Of a stretch of DNA of 64,000 bases, positions 25,289-33,363 are shown in pieces. The notes beneath the pieces were generated by a model. That model had not been told where the DNA came from and did not search any database. It was given only the letters and a program-made list of their open reading frames with translations. The stretch covers positions 62,001 to 126,000 of the forward strand of contig NZ_CAJGZN010000001.1 in NCBI RefSeq assembly GCF_904846235.1. Direction: 5' to 3'. Source of the DNA: Psychrobacter immobilis (GTDB lineage: Bacteria; Pseudomonadota; Gammaproteobacteria; Pseudomonadales; Moraxellaceae). The position numbers and the translations under genes are program-made. Every line of letters starts with the position of its first letter. Positions within the stretch are counted from its first letter, which is position 1.

Positions 25289-26521
25289 ATGAAGCACATT
25301 TTAATCGACTATGAGAACATTCAGCCCAAAAGCTTCGATAATGTAGAGGTGGATGAATGTCATGTATGGCTTTTTTTGGGTATTAATCAGCAGAAGAGTC
25401 TACCTCTTGAATTGGTTGAAAACTTGCTCAGGTTTGATAATGAAAATGTGCACATTATTAAGATGCAACATGCAGGGAAGAATGCGCTAGATTTTTACTT
25501 GTCTTTTTATCTTGGCAAAATCTCTGAAATTGATCCTAGTGCTGATGTTTGTATTTTAGCAAGAGATAGTGGTTATGATATCTTGGTTGAGCATCTCAAT
25601 AGTGCCTATGATGGTATGAGTATCATGCGGTTAGAAAATGCTAATCAGCTAACTGTGGCTTACGAGTCAAACATAGAAAATGCATCAGATATAAAAAAAA
25701 GCCAACTTGTCATCGAAGACAGTCATCATATTTTGTGTGATGACGTTACTAGCGTTGCCATGGACAATAAAAAATCTTTAGCGCAAAGCCTTGAAGAGAG
25801 CGTTCCCAAATCGGTTATACATGAGTGTTATGTATTGGTTTTTGATAGCATTGTCAATCGTAAGGTTTTTTTACCGAGCTATAAATCCAACCTATTGTAC
25901 TCGATAAAGAAGTACGTTCCAGTGAAAGTACTAGAGAGATTCAATAGTACTGAGCAAGATTATATTTTTGAACAGGTTTTTGGAAAATTTATCAAAGCAG
26001 GACTTATTAGACTTGATGAAAATGGAGAAAAACTAAGTTATAAAGTAGACAGTCAAGGAATATTAGATTTAGTCACTGATCAAGTTTTACGAAGTAAGGC
26101 AAAAGAAATTGATGGATTGAATAATGTGATAAAGCAAAAACTTGCAAGTTATCGCCAAGCAAATAGTCAGGATCAAATTGATTTAGTTGTAACGTACCTC
26201 AAAAAGAAGGACATAATAAAACAAGATAATAAAGCTATCTATTACTCACCTTTCGATAATATCAAAGGAAATTCGAGTAAAGTTTCACAAGATGATAATA
26301 AGAATAGCAAAGACTCTGCTACAACATATCAACGTGCAATAGCACAGCTAAAAAGTAGACCAGCAGGTACTCGACCATCCAAAAAGTCAAGTTTAATAAA
26401 CTATCTTAAAAGCTATCTACGTAATGAGGACACTAAAGCAATTGATAAGCTAGTTAAACAGATGGTTAGTAATAAAATAATCGTAATATCAAATACGAAT
26501 AAGCTGATCTACAAAATATAG
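25289..26521 (+). CDS. PIN/NYN-like putative nuclease with helix-rich C-terminal domains
   Basis: The first 130 residues look like a PIN-like (NYN-type) nuclease fold: ILIDYENI near residue 4, GKNALDFYLSFYLG near 63 and ILARDSGYDILVEHL near 89, giving the acidic set D7, D68, D93 and D97 expected to bind metal. Such proteins are predicted RNA endonucleases. Residues about 160-260 and 340-410 look like winged-helix-type segments that could bind nucleic acid. The gene is visibly more A+T-rich than its neighbours and uses many AAA, ATA and AAT codons, which suggests recent transfer. It ends one base from the convergent lysO-like stop. Its target is unknown. Confidence 0.75.
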   Translation: MKHILIDYENIQPKSFDNVEVDECHVWLFLGINQQKSLPLELVENLLRFDNENVHIIKMQHAGKNALDFYLSFYLGKISEIDPSADVCILARDSGYDILVEHLNSAYDGMSIMRLENANQLTVAYESNIENASDIKKSQLVIEDSHHILCDDVTSVAMDNKKSLAQSLEESVPKSVIHECYVLVFDSIVNRKVFLPSYKSNLLYSIKKYVPVKVLERFNSTEQDYIFEQVFGKFIKAGLIRLDENGEKLSYKVDSQGILDLVTDQVLRSKAKEIDGLNNVIKQKLASYRQANSQDQIDLVVTYLKKKDIIKQDNKAIYYSPFDNIKGNSSKVSQDDNKNSKDSATTYQRAIAQLKSRPAGTRPSKKSSLINYLKSYLRNEDTKAIDKLVKQMVSNKIIVISNTNKLIYKI

Positions 26522-27434: not shown

Positions 27435-27698
27435 GATAAAGGGCTCGCAGCATTTTTAATAAGGCGTTTTTAAGAAGCTGAAGATTGTACCATATAAGGT
27501 TAATAGTATTGATATGAGCCACTGAGATTCATTGTAAATCATCGCTCATTGTTGGCTAAACTGGAAAAACTGGACGATTATAATGATGTTAATAAATATC
27601 TTTTTCAAAATGTTTGAACGTTTTTGAGCGCTTTGTAATTCTTTACCTTATAAACTTTTGTTGCTACATTAAAGTACTGAAAATATTTGGCTAAACTC

Positions 27699-30407
27699 AT
27701 GTCGCTATATCAGCTCAAAACTCAGTTTCAAAATCAACTACGCCCGATAAGTAATGCGCTGGTTGAGCAAAATATTACTGCCAATCAAGTGACAGTATCC
27801 GCTGTTTTATTAAGTATCGGTACTGCTTATATAATTGCCAAACCAACGGCTGAACAGCAGCGGTTGTGGCTTTTATTACCATCATCATTGTTTGTACGTA
27901 TGGCACTCAATGCCATCGATGGCATGATGGCGCGTGAACATGGCCAGGCATCAACGCTAGGAGCCGTGTTAAACGAGGTAGGTGATATGGTTGCCGATAC
28001 GGCTCTATTAGCGAGTCTGGCGCCTCATATTCTGACCCCTCATATCAATAACAAAGAACGGCAAACGGTAATAGTCAACTTACCAACGAACATATCAATT
28101 TCTCAGCACCATATCACTGCTCTGATCGCGCTTAGTATTGGCACCGAGCTGTTGGGCGTTACTAGTAATACCATGTTAGGTGTTCGTGCTAACCAAGGGC
28201 CTTTGGGCAAAAGCGATCGTGCCTTCTTATTAGGTATGCTTGGTGCGTTTATGGGCATTAGAGCCAAAGCGCCAGTAAGTATTAAAGGGCAGGTGGCTTT
28301 ACCTGCTATCAGAATGAGTCAATTATTTATATCAACAGAGATAATGCTACTAAAGACCTGTCTCAATCGACTACGTTATATGACAGAGTTATACTTGATG
28401 CATAACCCACCTCAGCTGCGATCCGTACTGGGTGAGTCAACAAACAACTCACTATTTCTTACTGTTGTTTTACCAAGTACTTCTACTGATAACGCTCGCC
28501 CATTGGAGTTCAAAGAAATGCCAACCACAACCGTTGATAGTCAAAAATTCGAAGAACAGGCCAGTGTTGGTTTTGACTTGCCTGCATCTAAAATCATCAA
28601 TGGTGAAAGCTGTTATAACGCTTACGACGGCACGGCTATTTATTATCGCTATTGGCTAACGACGCCTTTAGAAGACATGAAAAAATCAGCTATCAAGCAA
28701 GCCAACCGACCGTTGCGCCAAGTTATCTTATTGCACCGAGGACATGAGCATTCGGGACGATTGGCAGAGCTGGGAGAGCAGTTTGCAACAGCTGGCTATC
28801 AAGTATTTGCTTGGGATGCACGCGGTAATGGGCGCTCAGGGGGTATAAAAGACCATGCTGAGAGCGTTACCGAGCTGGAGCGAGATTTAGAAGGTTTTGT
28901 ACAACTGGTGATTGGGCAAACAGGTATTGCTATCGAGGATACATTGATTGTCGCTAGCAGTATCGGCGCGGTATTGGCAGCAGCATGGGTACACGATTAT
29001 GCGCCAAATATTCGCGGGATGATATTGGGCACGCCTGCTTTGAGTATTCGTCTGTATCTGCCCTTTGCCATACCATCGCTAAAGGTGGCACGTACGCTAG
29101 GTCTGATGTCACGTGTCAGCAGCTATGTTAAAGCACAAGTACTGACCCATGATAAAGACGCGCAGCAAGCCTATAATGCCGATCCGTTAATATCCAACAG
29201 TATTTCGACCGACTTGCTCATCGACACTCATGCAACCGGTCAGCGTCTACTCGATGATGCTGGTGCTATCACCGTACCGACGTTTGTCTTATGCGCGGGT
29301 AAGGATTATGTGGTCGATAAGCAGGCTGAGCGGAAATTCTATGAGGCGATTAACACACCGATTAAACGCTGGCAGTTGTATCCAGACAGCTATCATGCAA
29401 TTTTTCATGAGACCAATAAAGCCGATGTCTTTGCCGACTGTATTGAGTTTGCTGAGGAAATATTTAGCACACCAGTCCAAGCCCCTGATTTGAGTACGGC
29501 TCACTTAAACAGTGCCAGTAAGGATAAAGTGGATCGTTTGGCGATTAAACCATTCAATCCAAACTTTGCGATTACCCGTTTTGCGATGCAGAAGTTTGGT
29601 CATGTTAGCGATGCGATTGCTACAGGACTTGAGCATGGCTTTGATTCAGGTCATTCACTGGATCATGTCTATTATAATAAACCCAGCGGTCAGAATAAAT
29701 TCGGACAGGCAGTCGATAAGTTTTATTTAAACAATATCGGCTGGCAAGGTATTCGCATTCGTCGTGAGCATATATTGGAATTGGCACGCTTAGCACTCGC
29801 AGATATCGAAGATAAAAACCAAGGTAGTAATAAATCATACCAACCAAAACTGTTAGATATCGCTAGTGGTCATGGTTTTTATGCGTTTGATCTATTGACA
29901 GAGTTTACAGATTTGCATGCTGAATTGCGTGATTATGAAATGCATAATATTCAGGCACTGCAAGCAAAAGCACAGCAGTTAGTGATTGCTGATCGAGTAG
30001 TAACCAGTCAAAAGGACGCCTTTGATCCTACTAGTTATATTAATGCAGATACGAATGACACTAGCGCCGATACTAAAAAAACAGATCTTGCTATTGCTTC
30101 TGGGTTATTTGAACTGTTCTCTGATAATGCGCTACTAGCGACAGCTTTGGCAGGTATTTATGACAGTTTAAAATCGGGCGGTTATCTGATTTATACCAAC
30201 CAACCTTGGCATCCTGAGCAAGAATTTATCAGTAAAACATTAAACAATCACCGTGGCAGTAGTTGGGTGATGCGTTGCCGTTCGCAAGCGGAAATGGATC
30301 AATTGGTTGAGCGTGCAGGTTTTAAGAAAGTCACAATGCGTATCGATCGCTTTGGTATCTTTACTGTTTCGTTAGCGATTAAAATCGCACCAGCTGATGA
30401 CGAGTGA
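27699..30407 (+). CDS. Three-domain lipid enzyme: CDP-alcohol phosphotransferase, alpha/beta hydrolase, methyltransferase
   Basis: Residues 1-230 are a membrane-embedded CDP-alcohol phosphotransferase-like domain (NAIDGMMAREHG, residues 71-82, then G88, N92, D96). Residues about 300-590 are an alpha/beta hydrolase related to monoglyceride lipases, with HRGHEHSGR near 346, candidate nucleophile S421 in ASSIG, D536 and H566. Residues about 610-902 are a class I methyltransferase with LLDIASGHGFYAFDL near 718. The frame extends to a TTG at 27687, but the ATG at 27699 is preferred. Two metal-binding aspartates of the first domain are asparagine. It is the first gene of a tight operon with the patatin-like and dehydrogenase genes. 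The domain set suggests synthesis and modification of an unusual lipid headgroup; the substrate is unknown. Confidence 0.85.
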   Translation: MSLYQLKTQFQNQLRPISNALVEQNITANQVTVSAVLLSIGTAYIIAKPTAEQQRLWLLLPSSLFVRMALNAIDGMMAREHGQASTLGAVLNEVGDMVADTALLASLAPHILTPHINNKERQTVIVNLPTNISISQHHITALIALSIGTELLGVTSNTMLGVRANQGPLGKSDRAFLLGMLGAFMGIRAKAPVSIKGQVALPAIRMSQLFISTEIMLLKTCLNRLRYMTELYLMHNPPQLRSVLGESTNNSLFLTVVLPSTSTDNARPLEFKEMPTTTVDSQKFEEQASVGFDLPASKIINGESCYNAYDGTAIYYRYWLTTPLEDMKKSAIKQANRPLRQVILLHRGHEHSGRLAELGEQFATAGYQVFAWDARGNGRSGGIKDHAESVTELERDLEGFVQLVIGQTGIAIEDTLIVASSIGAVLAAAWVHDYAPNIRGMILGTPALSIRLYLPFAIPSLKVARTLGLMSRVSSYVKAQVLTHDKDAQQAYNADPLISNSISTDLLIDTHATGQRLLDDAGAITVPTFVLCAGKDYVVDKQAERKFYEAINTPIKRWQLYPDSYHAIFHETNKADVFADCIEFAEEIFSTPVQAPDLSTAHLNSASKDKVDRLAIKPFNPNFAITRFAMQKFGHVSDAIATGLEHGFDSGHSLDHVYYNKPSGQNKFGQAVDKFYLNNIGWQGIRIRREHILELARLALADIEDKNQGSNKSYQPKLLDIASGHGFYAFDLLTEFTDLHAELRDYEMHNIQALQAKAQQLVIADRVVTSQKDAFDPTSYINADTNDTSADTKKTDLAIASGLFELFSDNALLATALAGIYDSLKSGGYLIYTNQPWHPEQEFISKTLNNHRGSSWVMRCRSQAEMDQLVERAGFKKVTMRIDRFGIFTVSLAIKIAPADDE

Positions 30408-30410
30408 TAG

Positions 30411-31604
30411 ATGAATAATCAGCTGGTTAAACCTTATGAGCGTGTTCAGCTTTTCTCAGGCGGAGGCTCACGTTTTGGTTATTATTTGGGCAGTTATGCA
30501 GCCCTAGCAGCGCATGATTTGACGCCAGACATTATCGTTGGTACTTGCGGTGGTAGTTTGTCTGCCTACTTAGTACACCTTGCGCCTGACCCTAAAGATT
30601 TGCAAGCATTGATGTGCAGCCGTGAGTTATATCGTGTCATCACTGCCATCAGACATGTCGCGCCAGATGAAGCCAATAAACGTCTAAAGCTGCGCTATAT
30701 GACACATGCACTCAAACGTTGGCGGTTATCAAAGCAAAGGGATAATGGACAAGGACAACGTCAAGCAGACAGTTACGAGCGACTGTTAAATGAGCTACAG
30801 CAGTTGGCAATGTTTCGTATCGATAACGAGCAGTACTGGCTGGATGAGCTGTCGCAGTTTGCTGCTAGTGATAGTGGTAGCGCTGCTGGTAAAACAACGC
30901 CAGAGATAGCTATCATTGCCAGTCGATTGTATCAAGCACCTGCTGATGGCTTATGTAATAAAAAACCTGTACTGCAAGAGTTGTTATTTGCGCCGCCGTG
31001 CTTAGCAAATTTACCAAATTCTGCATCAGGTCTGGCTGACGAACAAATAACGTCACCAGCGCATATATTTGCAAACGGACGCATACACCCGTCTGTAAAA
31101 GTACAGACGCAATGGGATTTTGCCCCAGTGATTCGCGCGTCTATGGCTGACATGTACTATCTACCGCCAACACATATCACAGAGCTTGGCTGGTGTTTAG
31201 GAGGTGTGATTAATCTCACACCGATTGAGTTGGCCTGTCAGTTGGGTGATAGCGTATTTGCAGAGACTAAGGCAGGTTATGACCCATGGCTGGCTGCTCC
31301 CGCGATTCAGCGCGTCTTTGGTTTTGATCCCAATGAGCGCTTGGCAGCAGTACACAGTTATCAACCAGTCAGTGTGTCGGCGCTCACTGAAACCATTAAT
31401 AAAAACCGTCAGCTACATTGGTTACCATTTGCAGATAACAAGCAGCAACTGAGAGGGCAAAATGTGCAAAAGCGGTTTAACCTAAAGCAAATGACTGTTG
31501 AGCTAATACACACCGACTATGACGGTTTTGTGCAGCAAATGCAGGCGCAATGGCAATATGGCTATCAGCGTACGGTCAACTATATACAGCAACATAAATT
31601 ATGA
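30411..31604 (+). CDS. Patatin-like protein lacking the usual catalytic serine and aspartate
   Basis: The N-terminal glycine-rich loop FSGGGSRFGYYLGSYAAL (residues 15-32) and the IIVGTCGGSLSAYL segment match the patatin phospholipase fold. In patatins the second segment reads GxSxG with the nucleophile serine; here residue 46 is cysteine (TGC at 30546-30548). The partner motif, normally DGG-x-x-N-x-P, appears as LGGVINLTP, so the aspartate is leucine. The protein may be a pseudo-enzyme or use a cysteine. It has no signal peptide. The start lies 3 bp after the previous stop, and the stop overlaps the next start. Confidence 0.8.
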   Translation: MNNQLVKPYERVQLFSGGGSRFGYYLGSYAALAAHDLTPDIIVGTCGGSLSAYLVHLAPDPKDLQALMCSRELYRVITAIRHVAPDEANKRLKLRYMTHALKRWRLSKQRDNGQGQRQADSYERLLNELQQLAMFRIDNEQYWLDELSQFAASDSGSAAGKTTPEIAIIASRLYQAPADGLCNKKPVLQELLFAPPCLANLPNSASGLADEQITSPAHIFANGRIHPSVKVQTQWDFAPVIRASMADMYYLPPTHITELGWCLGGVINLTPIELACQLGDSVFAETKAGYDPWLAAPAIQRVFGFDPNERLAAVHSYQPVSVSALTETINKNRQLHWLPFADNKQQLRGQNVQKRFNLKQMTVELIHTDYDGFVQQMQAQWQYGYQRTVNYIQQHKL

Positions 31605-32428
31605 AAAACATCGCAAAAGGTATCACTAGAAACCATGCGCCGCATATCATTATCGTTGGTGGTACGAGTGGCATTGGCTTGGCATTGGCGTTGCATCATC
31701 AGATGCTTGGCTGGCAGGTGAGCGTTGTTGGTAGTAGCGCAGCAAAGATAGCCGATATCAATAGCCAGCATCCTGCTATCGTAACTTATGTGTGTGATTT
31801 AACTGAACCAAATCAAACGCAAACGTTATTAGACAATTTGTCAGGTATTAGTTTTCAAAGGCTGATCTATAGTGCTGGTAGCTATACCAATGAGCGTATC
31901 CATCACTTAAATCAAGCAGATAGCGACCAAATGCTAGCGATCAATTTACAGGCGTTTGAGCAAGTTTTTAGATGGGCAAGCAGTCAATTAAAGCAGCAGT
32001 TAAAACAGCAATATCAGTCATTGGACGCTAGAAAAAGCGATAAACCTAGCATTGTCTGTATTGCCTCTATCGCAGGTACGATAGATTATCCTTATGCCAG
32101 TCTTTATGCAAAAAGCAAACGTGCAATGATTGCGACTGCTAGTGCTTATCGAGCAGCACTTGTACCTTATGATATCCAAGTGAACTGTATTGCCTCAGGC
32201 TATATCAATACTCAAGCATTGCGTGATTTAAACGATGGCGATGCTAGCCATAAGCCATTTATCATGAGCACGCAAGCGGCGGTTGATCATATTATGCAAG
32301 CGATTGACGATGATGTAGAGCTGGCGATATTTCCACGCTCGATGCGCTATATCACAAGTTTTTTAAACCATTTACCAAAGCCTGTGCTCAATTGGATATT
32401 GCGCAGTAAACTAGATAAAGCCAAATAA
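31601..32428 (+). CDS. Short-chain dehydrogenase/reductase
   Basis: A Rossmann-fold NAD(P)-dependent oxidoreductase. The cofactor motif GGTSGIGLALAL is near residue 21, the catalytic serine lies in CIASIAGT and the catalytic YxxxK is YAKSK near residue 168. At 275 residues it is a typical classical SDR. It overlaps the end of the patatin-like gene by four bases (ATGA), so it is translationally coupled and likely acts in the same pathway, perhaps on an acyl chain or headgroup intermediate. It runs convergently into the cdsA-like gene, 26 bp apart. Confidence 0.9.
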   Translation: MKNIAKGITRNHAPHIIIVGGTSGIGLALALHHQMLGWQVSVVGSSAAKIADINSQHPAIVTYVCDLTEPNQTQTLLDNLSGISFQRLIYSAGSYTNERIHHLNQADSDQMLAINLQAFEQVFRWASSQLKQQLKQQYQSLDARKSDKPSIVCIASIAGTIDYPYASLYAKSKRAMIATASAYRAALVPYDIQVNCIASGYINTQALRDLNDGDASHKPFIMSTQAAVDHIMQAIDDDVELAIFPRSMRYITSFLNHLPKPVLNWILRSKLDKAK

Positions 32429-32454
32429 TATGACTATCAATACTTTGACTAGGT

Positions 32455-33363
32455 TTAACCAAGTAACCAGTAGAGTAAGGTAAATACTGGAACTCCAATC
32501 AGTAAACTGTCTATCCGATCTAAGACCCCACCATGACCAGCGAGCATCGTTCCGGTGTCTTTTACCCCGTGCTGGCGCTTAAAGGCTGATTCTAATAAGT
32601 CTCCAAAGATACCGCTCACCGCCAAGCCATAGGCAGCTAATAGACAGACCCACCAATCAAAAGGAGTGAGCCAAAGACCTAATACTGCTGCCAATATTGC
32701 CGCAACTAAACTGCCAAAGATAGCACCTTCAATGCTTTTATTGGGGCTAATAATCGGCGCTAGACCTCGTTTAAACAGCTTACGTCCAAGCAGTCTTCCG
32801 CATAGATATTGGGCAATATCATTAAACTGACTGGCAAATAATACGAAGAGTAAAACACCATATTGTTCGCGTTGCCAGGTCAGTTGCTGCAAGATAATAA
32901 GGCTAATAATGAGTGAGAGGAAAGTAACACTCAGTAGCAGGTCTAAGAAGTTGAGCCGCGTATAGTGTTGAGTCAGATTGAGAGAGGTTTTCGCTAGCAG
33001 GGGAGTACTTGGCTGTAAACCTTGCCCTTGGAGTTTATGAATGAGCACGGCTTTACTGCGTAAACACCATAGGCGTTTAATCTCGTAGCTGCCGCGTAGA
33101 CCAATTAATATAAAAAATAAAATGAGCAGCCATTGATAGGGATATGCTTGCGAATAAGAACCTGGCGTATCGTGCGTTATTTTTGCAATCACATAGCAAG
33201 TGCAGAGCGCGGCTAACATCAACCACCACGAGCGGGCTATCAAGTAGATTTTTGGCAAACGTTTGCGCAGACGAGGTACGGCAAGTACACTCCAAGCCAA
33301 ACTGACGATTATCATTAGGGCAATCACAAACACAATATCAGAAGCCATACCGTGGACACTCAA
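32455..33363 (-). CDS. Phosphatidate cytidylyltransferase (CdsA family)
   Basis: An inner-membrane enzyme that makes CDP-diacylglycerol from phosphatidic acid and CTP. The family signature near the C-terminus is complete: SAFKRQHGVKDTGTMLAGHG followed by GVLDRID. A SPNKSIEGAIFGS segment is also typical. About seven hydrophobic segments are seen in 302 residues. CDP-diacylglycerol is the expected substrate for the CDP-alcohol phosphotransferase domain encoded in the convergent operon, which makes a functional link likely. It may be a second, pathway-specific copy, because housekeeping cdsA usually sits beside bamA and uppS; that cannot be checked here. Confidence 0.88.
   Translation of the reverse strand: MSVHGMASDIVFVIALMIIVSLAWSVLAVPRLRKRLPKIYLIARSWWLMLAALCTCYVIAKITHDTPGSYSQAYPYQWLLILFFILIGLRGSYEIKRLWCLRSKAVLIHKLQGQGLQPSTPLLAKTSLNLTQHYTRLNFLDLLLSVTFLSLIISLIILQQLTWQREQYGVLLFVLFASQFNDIAQYLCGRLLGRKLFKRGLAPIISPNKSIEGAIFGSLVAAILAAVLGLWLTPFDWWVCLLAAYGLAVSGIFGDLLESAFKRQHGVKDTGTMLAGHGGVLDRIDSLLIGVPVFTLLYWLLG

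Follow-up and report, generated by a model that had tools for sequence, protein, structure and literature searches.

The window analysed here, a 64,000-nucleotide stretch from the 3.22-Mb genome of Psychrobacter immobilis, whose closest relatives are Psychrobacter species, carries a compact group of four genes (Table 1). The first encodes a 902-residue protein in which a YnbA-type domain, a hydrolase and a methyltransferase are joined in one frame; 3 bp past its stop begins the gene of a patatin-like protein, which the gene of a short-chain dehydrogenase/reductase (SDR) overlaps by 4 bp, and a CdsA-like gene converges on these three, its stop at 32455 lying 26 bp from that of the SDR gene. An initial annotation of this DNA had described the three-domain frame, the 3-bp and 4-bp spacing and the convergent CdsA-type gene, and open reading frames and domain profiles confirmed all of them. 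A 410-residue PIN7-domain protein, encoded at 25289–26521 next to the cluster, occurs in only some related genomes.

Table 1. Genes, domains and motifs of the cluster (positions in the 64,000-nucleotide window).
Feature	Position	Strand	Basis or remark
ynbA::ynbC fusion gene, 902 aa	27699..30407	+	ORF list, domain profiles, E. coli comparison
YnbA-type CDP-alcohol phosphotransferase-like membrane domain, residues 1-235	27699..28403	+	PF01066
Variant signature N71-x2-D74-G-x2-A-R79-x8-G88-x3-N92-x3-D96	27909..27986	+	Two Asp replaced by Asn
Linker, disordered, length-variable, residues 236-299	28404..28595	+	AF2 pLDDT, dN/dS
Monoglyceride-lipase-like hydrolase domain, residues 300-580	28596..29438	+	Hydrolase_4 E 1.5e-55, triad S421-D536-H566
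Methyltransf_20 class-I SAM methyltransferase domain, residues 581-902	29439..30404	+	PF12147 E 1e-88
Patatin-fold protein, Cys46 at nucleophile position, Leu263 for DGG Asp	30411..31604	+	PF01734
Short-chain dehydrogenase/reductase (SDR)	31601..32428	+	adh_short E 1.5e-26
YnbB-like CDP-diacylglycerol synthase paralogue	32455..33363	-	PF01148; CTP_transf_1 E 1e-40

The fusion gene starts at ATG 27699, where the conserved start reads MSLYQLK, and an in-frame TTG is also present at 27687. Compared with Escherichia coli MG1655, its product matched YnbC with 39.5% identity over residues 300–895 (E 3e-155) and YnbA with 36% (E 4e-33); the YnbA-type domain showed 36–38% identity to E. coli YnbA (E 4e-33 to 6e-37) and matched PF01066 above the cut-off of 22 bits (25.4 bits, E 2e-5). 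The hydrolase domain has the expected fold and a catalytic triad that is invariant among the aligned homologues, its best likeness being to monoglyceride lipases, with a weak resemblance to lysophospholipase L2 as well. Comparison of the predicted structure of the fusion with monoglyceride lipases, which the initial annotation had proposed, gave Z 35.7 to the mycobacterial enzyme 7ozm. The methyltransferase domain contains the SAM-binding glycine motif expected of a PF12147 protein, and its residues D720, G724 and G726 are invariant.

The AF2 model of the complete fusion (pLDDT 87, pTM 0.71) predicts long helices in the YnbA-type domain and falls under pLDDT 50 at residues 240–292 of the linker. 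Matches to the hydrolase domain filled the list obtained in the fold search with this model, crowding out the CDP-alcohol and methyltransferase domains, and a sequence search of the solved structures with the CDP-alcohol domain gave weak matches only, to phosphatidylinositol-phosphate synthases (E 0.003). All three fused domains are under purifying selection, with dN/dS of about 0.02–0.24, whereas the linker showed values of 0.3–0.6 against less than 0.25 in the domains, one near-identical pair excepted.

CDP-alcohol phosphotransferases are recognized by the signature D-x2-D-G-x2-A-R-x7,8-G-x3-D-x3-D (PROSITE PS00379; PMC9385802). The fusion does not conform to it, as the first and third Asp are replaced by Asn (N71 and N92), whereas the three canonical paralogues encoded elsewhere in the same genome read D-D-D-D. 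Using a pattern that also allowed the canonical Asp, we found N-D-N-D in 114 of the 115 motif-bearing ORFs of the fetched loci and N-D-S-D in the remaining one; some of these loci redundantly represent one and the same region of a genome. The initial assignment of a CDP-alcohol phosphotransferase-like domain thus holds as far as the profile match is concerned, but with two of the four signature Asp lacking, the chemistry of these enzymes cannot be assumed. Since the variant motif is conserved rather than decaying, and the second and fourth Asp are retained together with the G, A, R and G, catalysis seems to be altered rather than lost. No useful paper on Asn-variant CDP-alcohol phosphotransferases came out of a literature search. 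A second CDP-alcohol paralogue without the first and third signature Asp was observed immediately preceding or adjoining PlsC and YnbB in three loci (L141, 13727–14371; L188, 8420–9073; L107, 4686–5348), and may represent a separate YnbB-linked family.

The product of the second gene matches the Patatin profile (E 4e-14), and its model (mean pLDDT 71, pTM 0.79) adopts the patatin fold, shared with PlpD (5fya) at Z 17.7 and 3.6 Å over 233 residues. Patatin-like phospholipases such as PlpD use Ser, but the cluster protein and all its aligned homologues carry an invariant Cys (C46) at the nucleophile position, so that the G-x-S-x-G Ser is missing, and in the alignment with PlpD the Asp of the DG[GA] motif is replaced by Leu, Phe, Met or Ile in every homologue. 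Because both catalytic residues have been exchanged throughout, ordinary lipid trimming by this protein is unlikely, and it is perhaps an acyl-transfer enzyme and not a hydrolase. The SDR retains intact GGTSGIG and S...YxxxK motifs; no solved structure matched it below E 1e-15.

The alignments of more distant homologues begin only at residue 6, so the convergent gene probably starts at ATG 33348, 15 bp inside the listed TTG 33363. Its product shares 46% identity with E. coli YnbB across the C-terminal half and scores 97 bits against the CdsA equivalog PRK11624, far under the curated cut-off of 385. A better, full-length PF01148 match is encoded elsewhere in the genome (G000:C1:173529) and is likely to be the housekeeping CdsA. 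With this canonical candidate and the three canonical CDP-alcohol phosphotransferases located elsewhere, a housekeeping CdsA/PgsA role for the cluster is unlikely.

Within the genus the cluster has a patchy distribution. Methyltransf_20 was detected in 24 of 57 related genomes, 23 of them among the 36 of the same genus, the one remaining match being marginal. The fusion, the patatin-like gene, the SDR gene and the convergent CdsA-like gene showed an identical order and orientation in 20 of 22 other Psychrobacter genomes, as well as in several strain-named ones, so the conserved neighbourhood on which the initial annotation depended does exist. In most of these loci the set is flanked by a LysO gene and nadBA, and one (L036) has the whole set without those neighbours. 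Departures from the arrangement were also seen. In a Psychrobacter-like locus (L041, 7986–10602 and 4216–5709) the CDP-alcohol domain is split off, leaving frames of 139 and 720 residues, ynbB is missing and a YnbD-like gene occupies the convergent position. Psychrobacter sp. Choline-02u-9 (L123, 7989–10710) has a fusion frame interrupted within the hydrolase domain, and L043 (5242–7963) has an identical break, possibly through sequencing error. What looks like an interruption or partial duplication of the patatin-like gene was seen in L053 (8014–11563), its pieces lying about 1.8 kb apart, and the fusion stands alone in P. coccoides and is accompanied by the patatin-like gene only in P. submarinus (L119; L106 and L117). 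A cluster that is patchy, and decaying piecemeal in some genomes, must be dispensable. Promoter and terminator scans gave chance-level results only.

Beyond the genus, a map of eighty named loci revealed the YnbA, YnbC, YnbD, PlsC and YnbB modules together in Alpha-, Beta- and Gammaproteobacteria, Verrucomicrobia, Acidobacteria and Planctomycetes. This wider association and the conserved gene order rule out a chance neighbourhood. The variant with a patatin-like protein and an SDR was seen in Psychrobacter, Moraxella and Vibrio xiamenensis, where the PlsC gene is absent. In a single tree of the YnbC family, rooted at the midpoint, its members form one clade (SH-aLRT 100), with the Psychrobacter fusion in the clade opposite the YnbC/Arc1B sequences, and on this tree the variant would have arisen once. 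Moraxella lacunata (L122) and V. xiamenensis (L125) possess the same set, including the convergent ynbB; in contrast to Psychrobacter, they carry ynbA and ynbC as two genes and have a ynbD-like phosphatase gene after ynbB. Under this root, the most economical history would be the gain of the patatin-like and SDR genes, followed in Psychrobacter by fusion and the usual loss of YnbD. Searches of the P. immobilis genome, including one with the DSPc family that gave a positive E. coli control, found no YnbD-type PAP2 and dual-specificity phosphatase, and none was found near Psychrobacter clusters except in L041; this phosphatase is an accessory that is not present in every mapped family member. 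Two further observations concern copy and frame: V. xiamenensis has two cluster copies with identical YnbC proteins on two contigs (L125, L126), and in an Acetobacteraceae metagenome contig (L128) ynbA and ynbC also share one frame, which is possibly an assembly error.

YnbA-, YnbC- and YnbB-type proteins encoded together place the Psychrobacter cluster in a family that also includes the arc1 operon of Pseudomonas aeruginosa. Using a deletion-primer sequence printed in PMC8926400, we located PA2541 in a Pseudomonas genome in which the start- and stop-side sites match and the two outer primers do not, so that this genome belongs to P. aeruginosa or a close relative. The gene found there is a YnbA homologue (50% identity to E. 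coli YnbA), followed by YnbC (56%), a YnbD-like gene, a small ORF, PlsC and YnbB, an order that identifies arc1, from sequence, as a ynb-type operon. The YnbD-like protein, seen in a Pseudomonas relative, combines PAP2 and dual-specificity phosphatase domains. Our literature search found no paper equating ynb with arc1; the term "ynb" does not occur in PMC8926400, nor do the arc1 passages of PMC12663445 use it. The arc1 operon is induced by Gac/Rsm and needed to survive T6SS attack, with no clear toxin class (PMC8926400), and arc1A, like aas and arc3, gives protection from lipase effectors (PMC12663445). No paper was found in our searches on a ynb product or a Psychrobacter lipid product. In the literature searched, the initial statement that no described product is known for this gene set holds with respect to the product, but the set turns out to belong, as a variant, to a widespread operon type for which a defence phenotype has been published (PMC8926400; PMC12663445). 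A link to a T6SS of the carrier itself was not seen, as VipB occurs in 6 of 23 genus genomes with the cluster and in 4 of 13 without it (36 genomes), a result that is neutral for a defence role, and as an anti-phage system the cluster found no PADLOC match.

The fusion and the co-occurrence of the modules provide good support for the view that the proteins of the cluster work in a single pathway. We give an even chance to the explanation that these proteins constitute an auxiliary pathway for synthesis and remodelling of anionic phospholipids, separate from housekeeping synthesis and serving membrane defence, of which the Psychrobacter cluster would be one form of the ynb/arc1 type. The YnbB-like enzyme would make CDP-diacylglycerol, the YnbA domain would move the phosphatidyl moiety onto an acceptor of the glycerol type, the fused hydrolase domain would remove or move an acyl group, and the methyltransferase domain would methylate the product, so that transfer, acyl and methylation steps would be gathered on one membrane-bound protein. 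The Cys-bearing patatin-fold protein and the SDR would take the place of the PlsC acyltransferase, and the outcome could be an altered anionic lipid, or the repair of lysolipids, allowing the membrane to withstand phospholipase damage. This agrees with the dedicated phospholipid pathway of the initial annotation, given the canonical CdsA and CDP-alcohol phosphotransferases elsewhere and the ynbABC/arc1 homology; its trimming step by the patatin-like protein is doubtful. The main weakness is that the defence role may not carry over, because the phenotype comes from arc1, an operon without the patatin-like protein and SDR. The two Asn in the signature of the YnbA domain and the patchy, dispensable nature of the cluster also count against this explanation. 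The narrower proposal that ynb/arc1 makes an undescribed methylated anionic phospholipid against phospholipase toxins, with Asn-variant metal chemistry and, in Psychrobacter, a three-domain protein and a Ser-to-Cys patatin, is decidedly tentative.

Among other explanations, a pathway of lipid repair is possible, although rather improbable: the hydrolase would remove or recycle lysophospholipids, YnbB and YnbA would rebuild phosphatidylglycerol, and methylation would be a side step or tag damaged fatty acids. The protection conferred by Arc1A, together with aas and arc3, against lipase effectors (PMC12663445), the nearness of the hydrolase to monoglyceride lipases with its faint likeness to lysophospholipase L2, and the PlsC of the canonical operon are consistent with it, but repair alone hardly explains an invariant methyltransferase domain in every member, and the variant shared by Psychrobacter, Moraxella and V. 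xiamenensis lacks PlsC. It is also unlikely that the YnbA domain serves as a membrane anchor, a lipid-binding module or in some other chemistry while the hydrolase–methyltransferase part sets the output on an existing lipid. The near-universal Asn at the first and third signature positions, set against the canonical paralogues of the same genome, and the locus L041, where this domain is disrupted but the remainder keeps an open frame, would fit such a role; the conservation of the remaining signature residues in the changed motif and the CdsA-type gene that nearly always accompanies the domain speak against it. Finally, a route from CDP-diacylglycerol to a pyrophosphate-linked sugar lipid of the MPIase type, instead of a phospholipid, is highly improbable: YnbB overproduction raises this CdsA-derived glycolipid in E. 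coli, and YnbB cannot replace CdsA (PMC6362211), but ynbB deletion leaves the MPIase level unchanged (PMC6362211) and none of the mapped clusters contains a sugar-handling gene.

Returning to the auxiliary phospholipid pathway, the cluster is a real, conserved and fused form of a known, biochemically unsolved pathway, and our analysis joins the E. coli ynb operon, the P. aeruginosa arc1 defence cluster and the fused Psychrobacter set, which had not been linked in the literature searched. The natural ynbA::ynbC fusion is an argument for YnbA and YnbC working on successive steps, and the conserved Asn substitutions and the Cys-patatin pose concrete biochemical questions; through the ynb–arc1 link and these conserved variant sites, the lipid product becomes testable both in E. 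coli K-12 and in a non-pathogenic Psychrobacter. In E. coli K-12, the ynbABCD operon (b1408–b1411) encodes YnbA, with the same variant motif as the fusion, YnbB and YnbC, homologous to the CDP-alcohol domain, the CdsA-like protein and the hydrolase–methyltransferase part, respectively; it differs in that the genes are separate within one operon that includes the YnbD phosphatase and no patatin-like protein or SDR. In P. aeruginosa arc1A–F (PA2541–PA2536), arc1A corresponds to YnbA, arc1B to YnbC and arc1F to YnbB, again unfused, and a PAP2 and dual-specificity phosphatase protein, a small ORF and PlsC stand where Psychrobacter has the patatin-like protein and the SDR. On sequence comparison, the fusion is distinctive for Psychrobacter, the two genes being separate in Moraxella and Vibrio.
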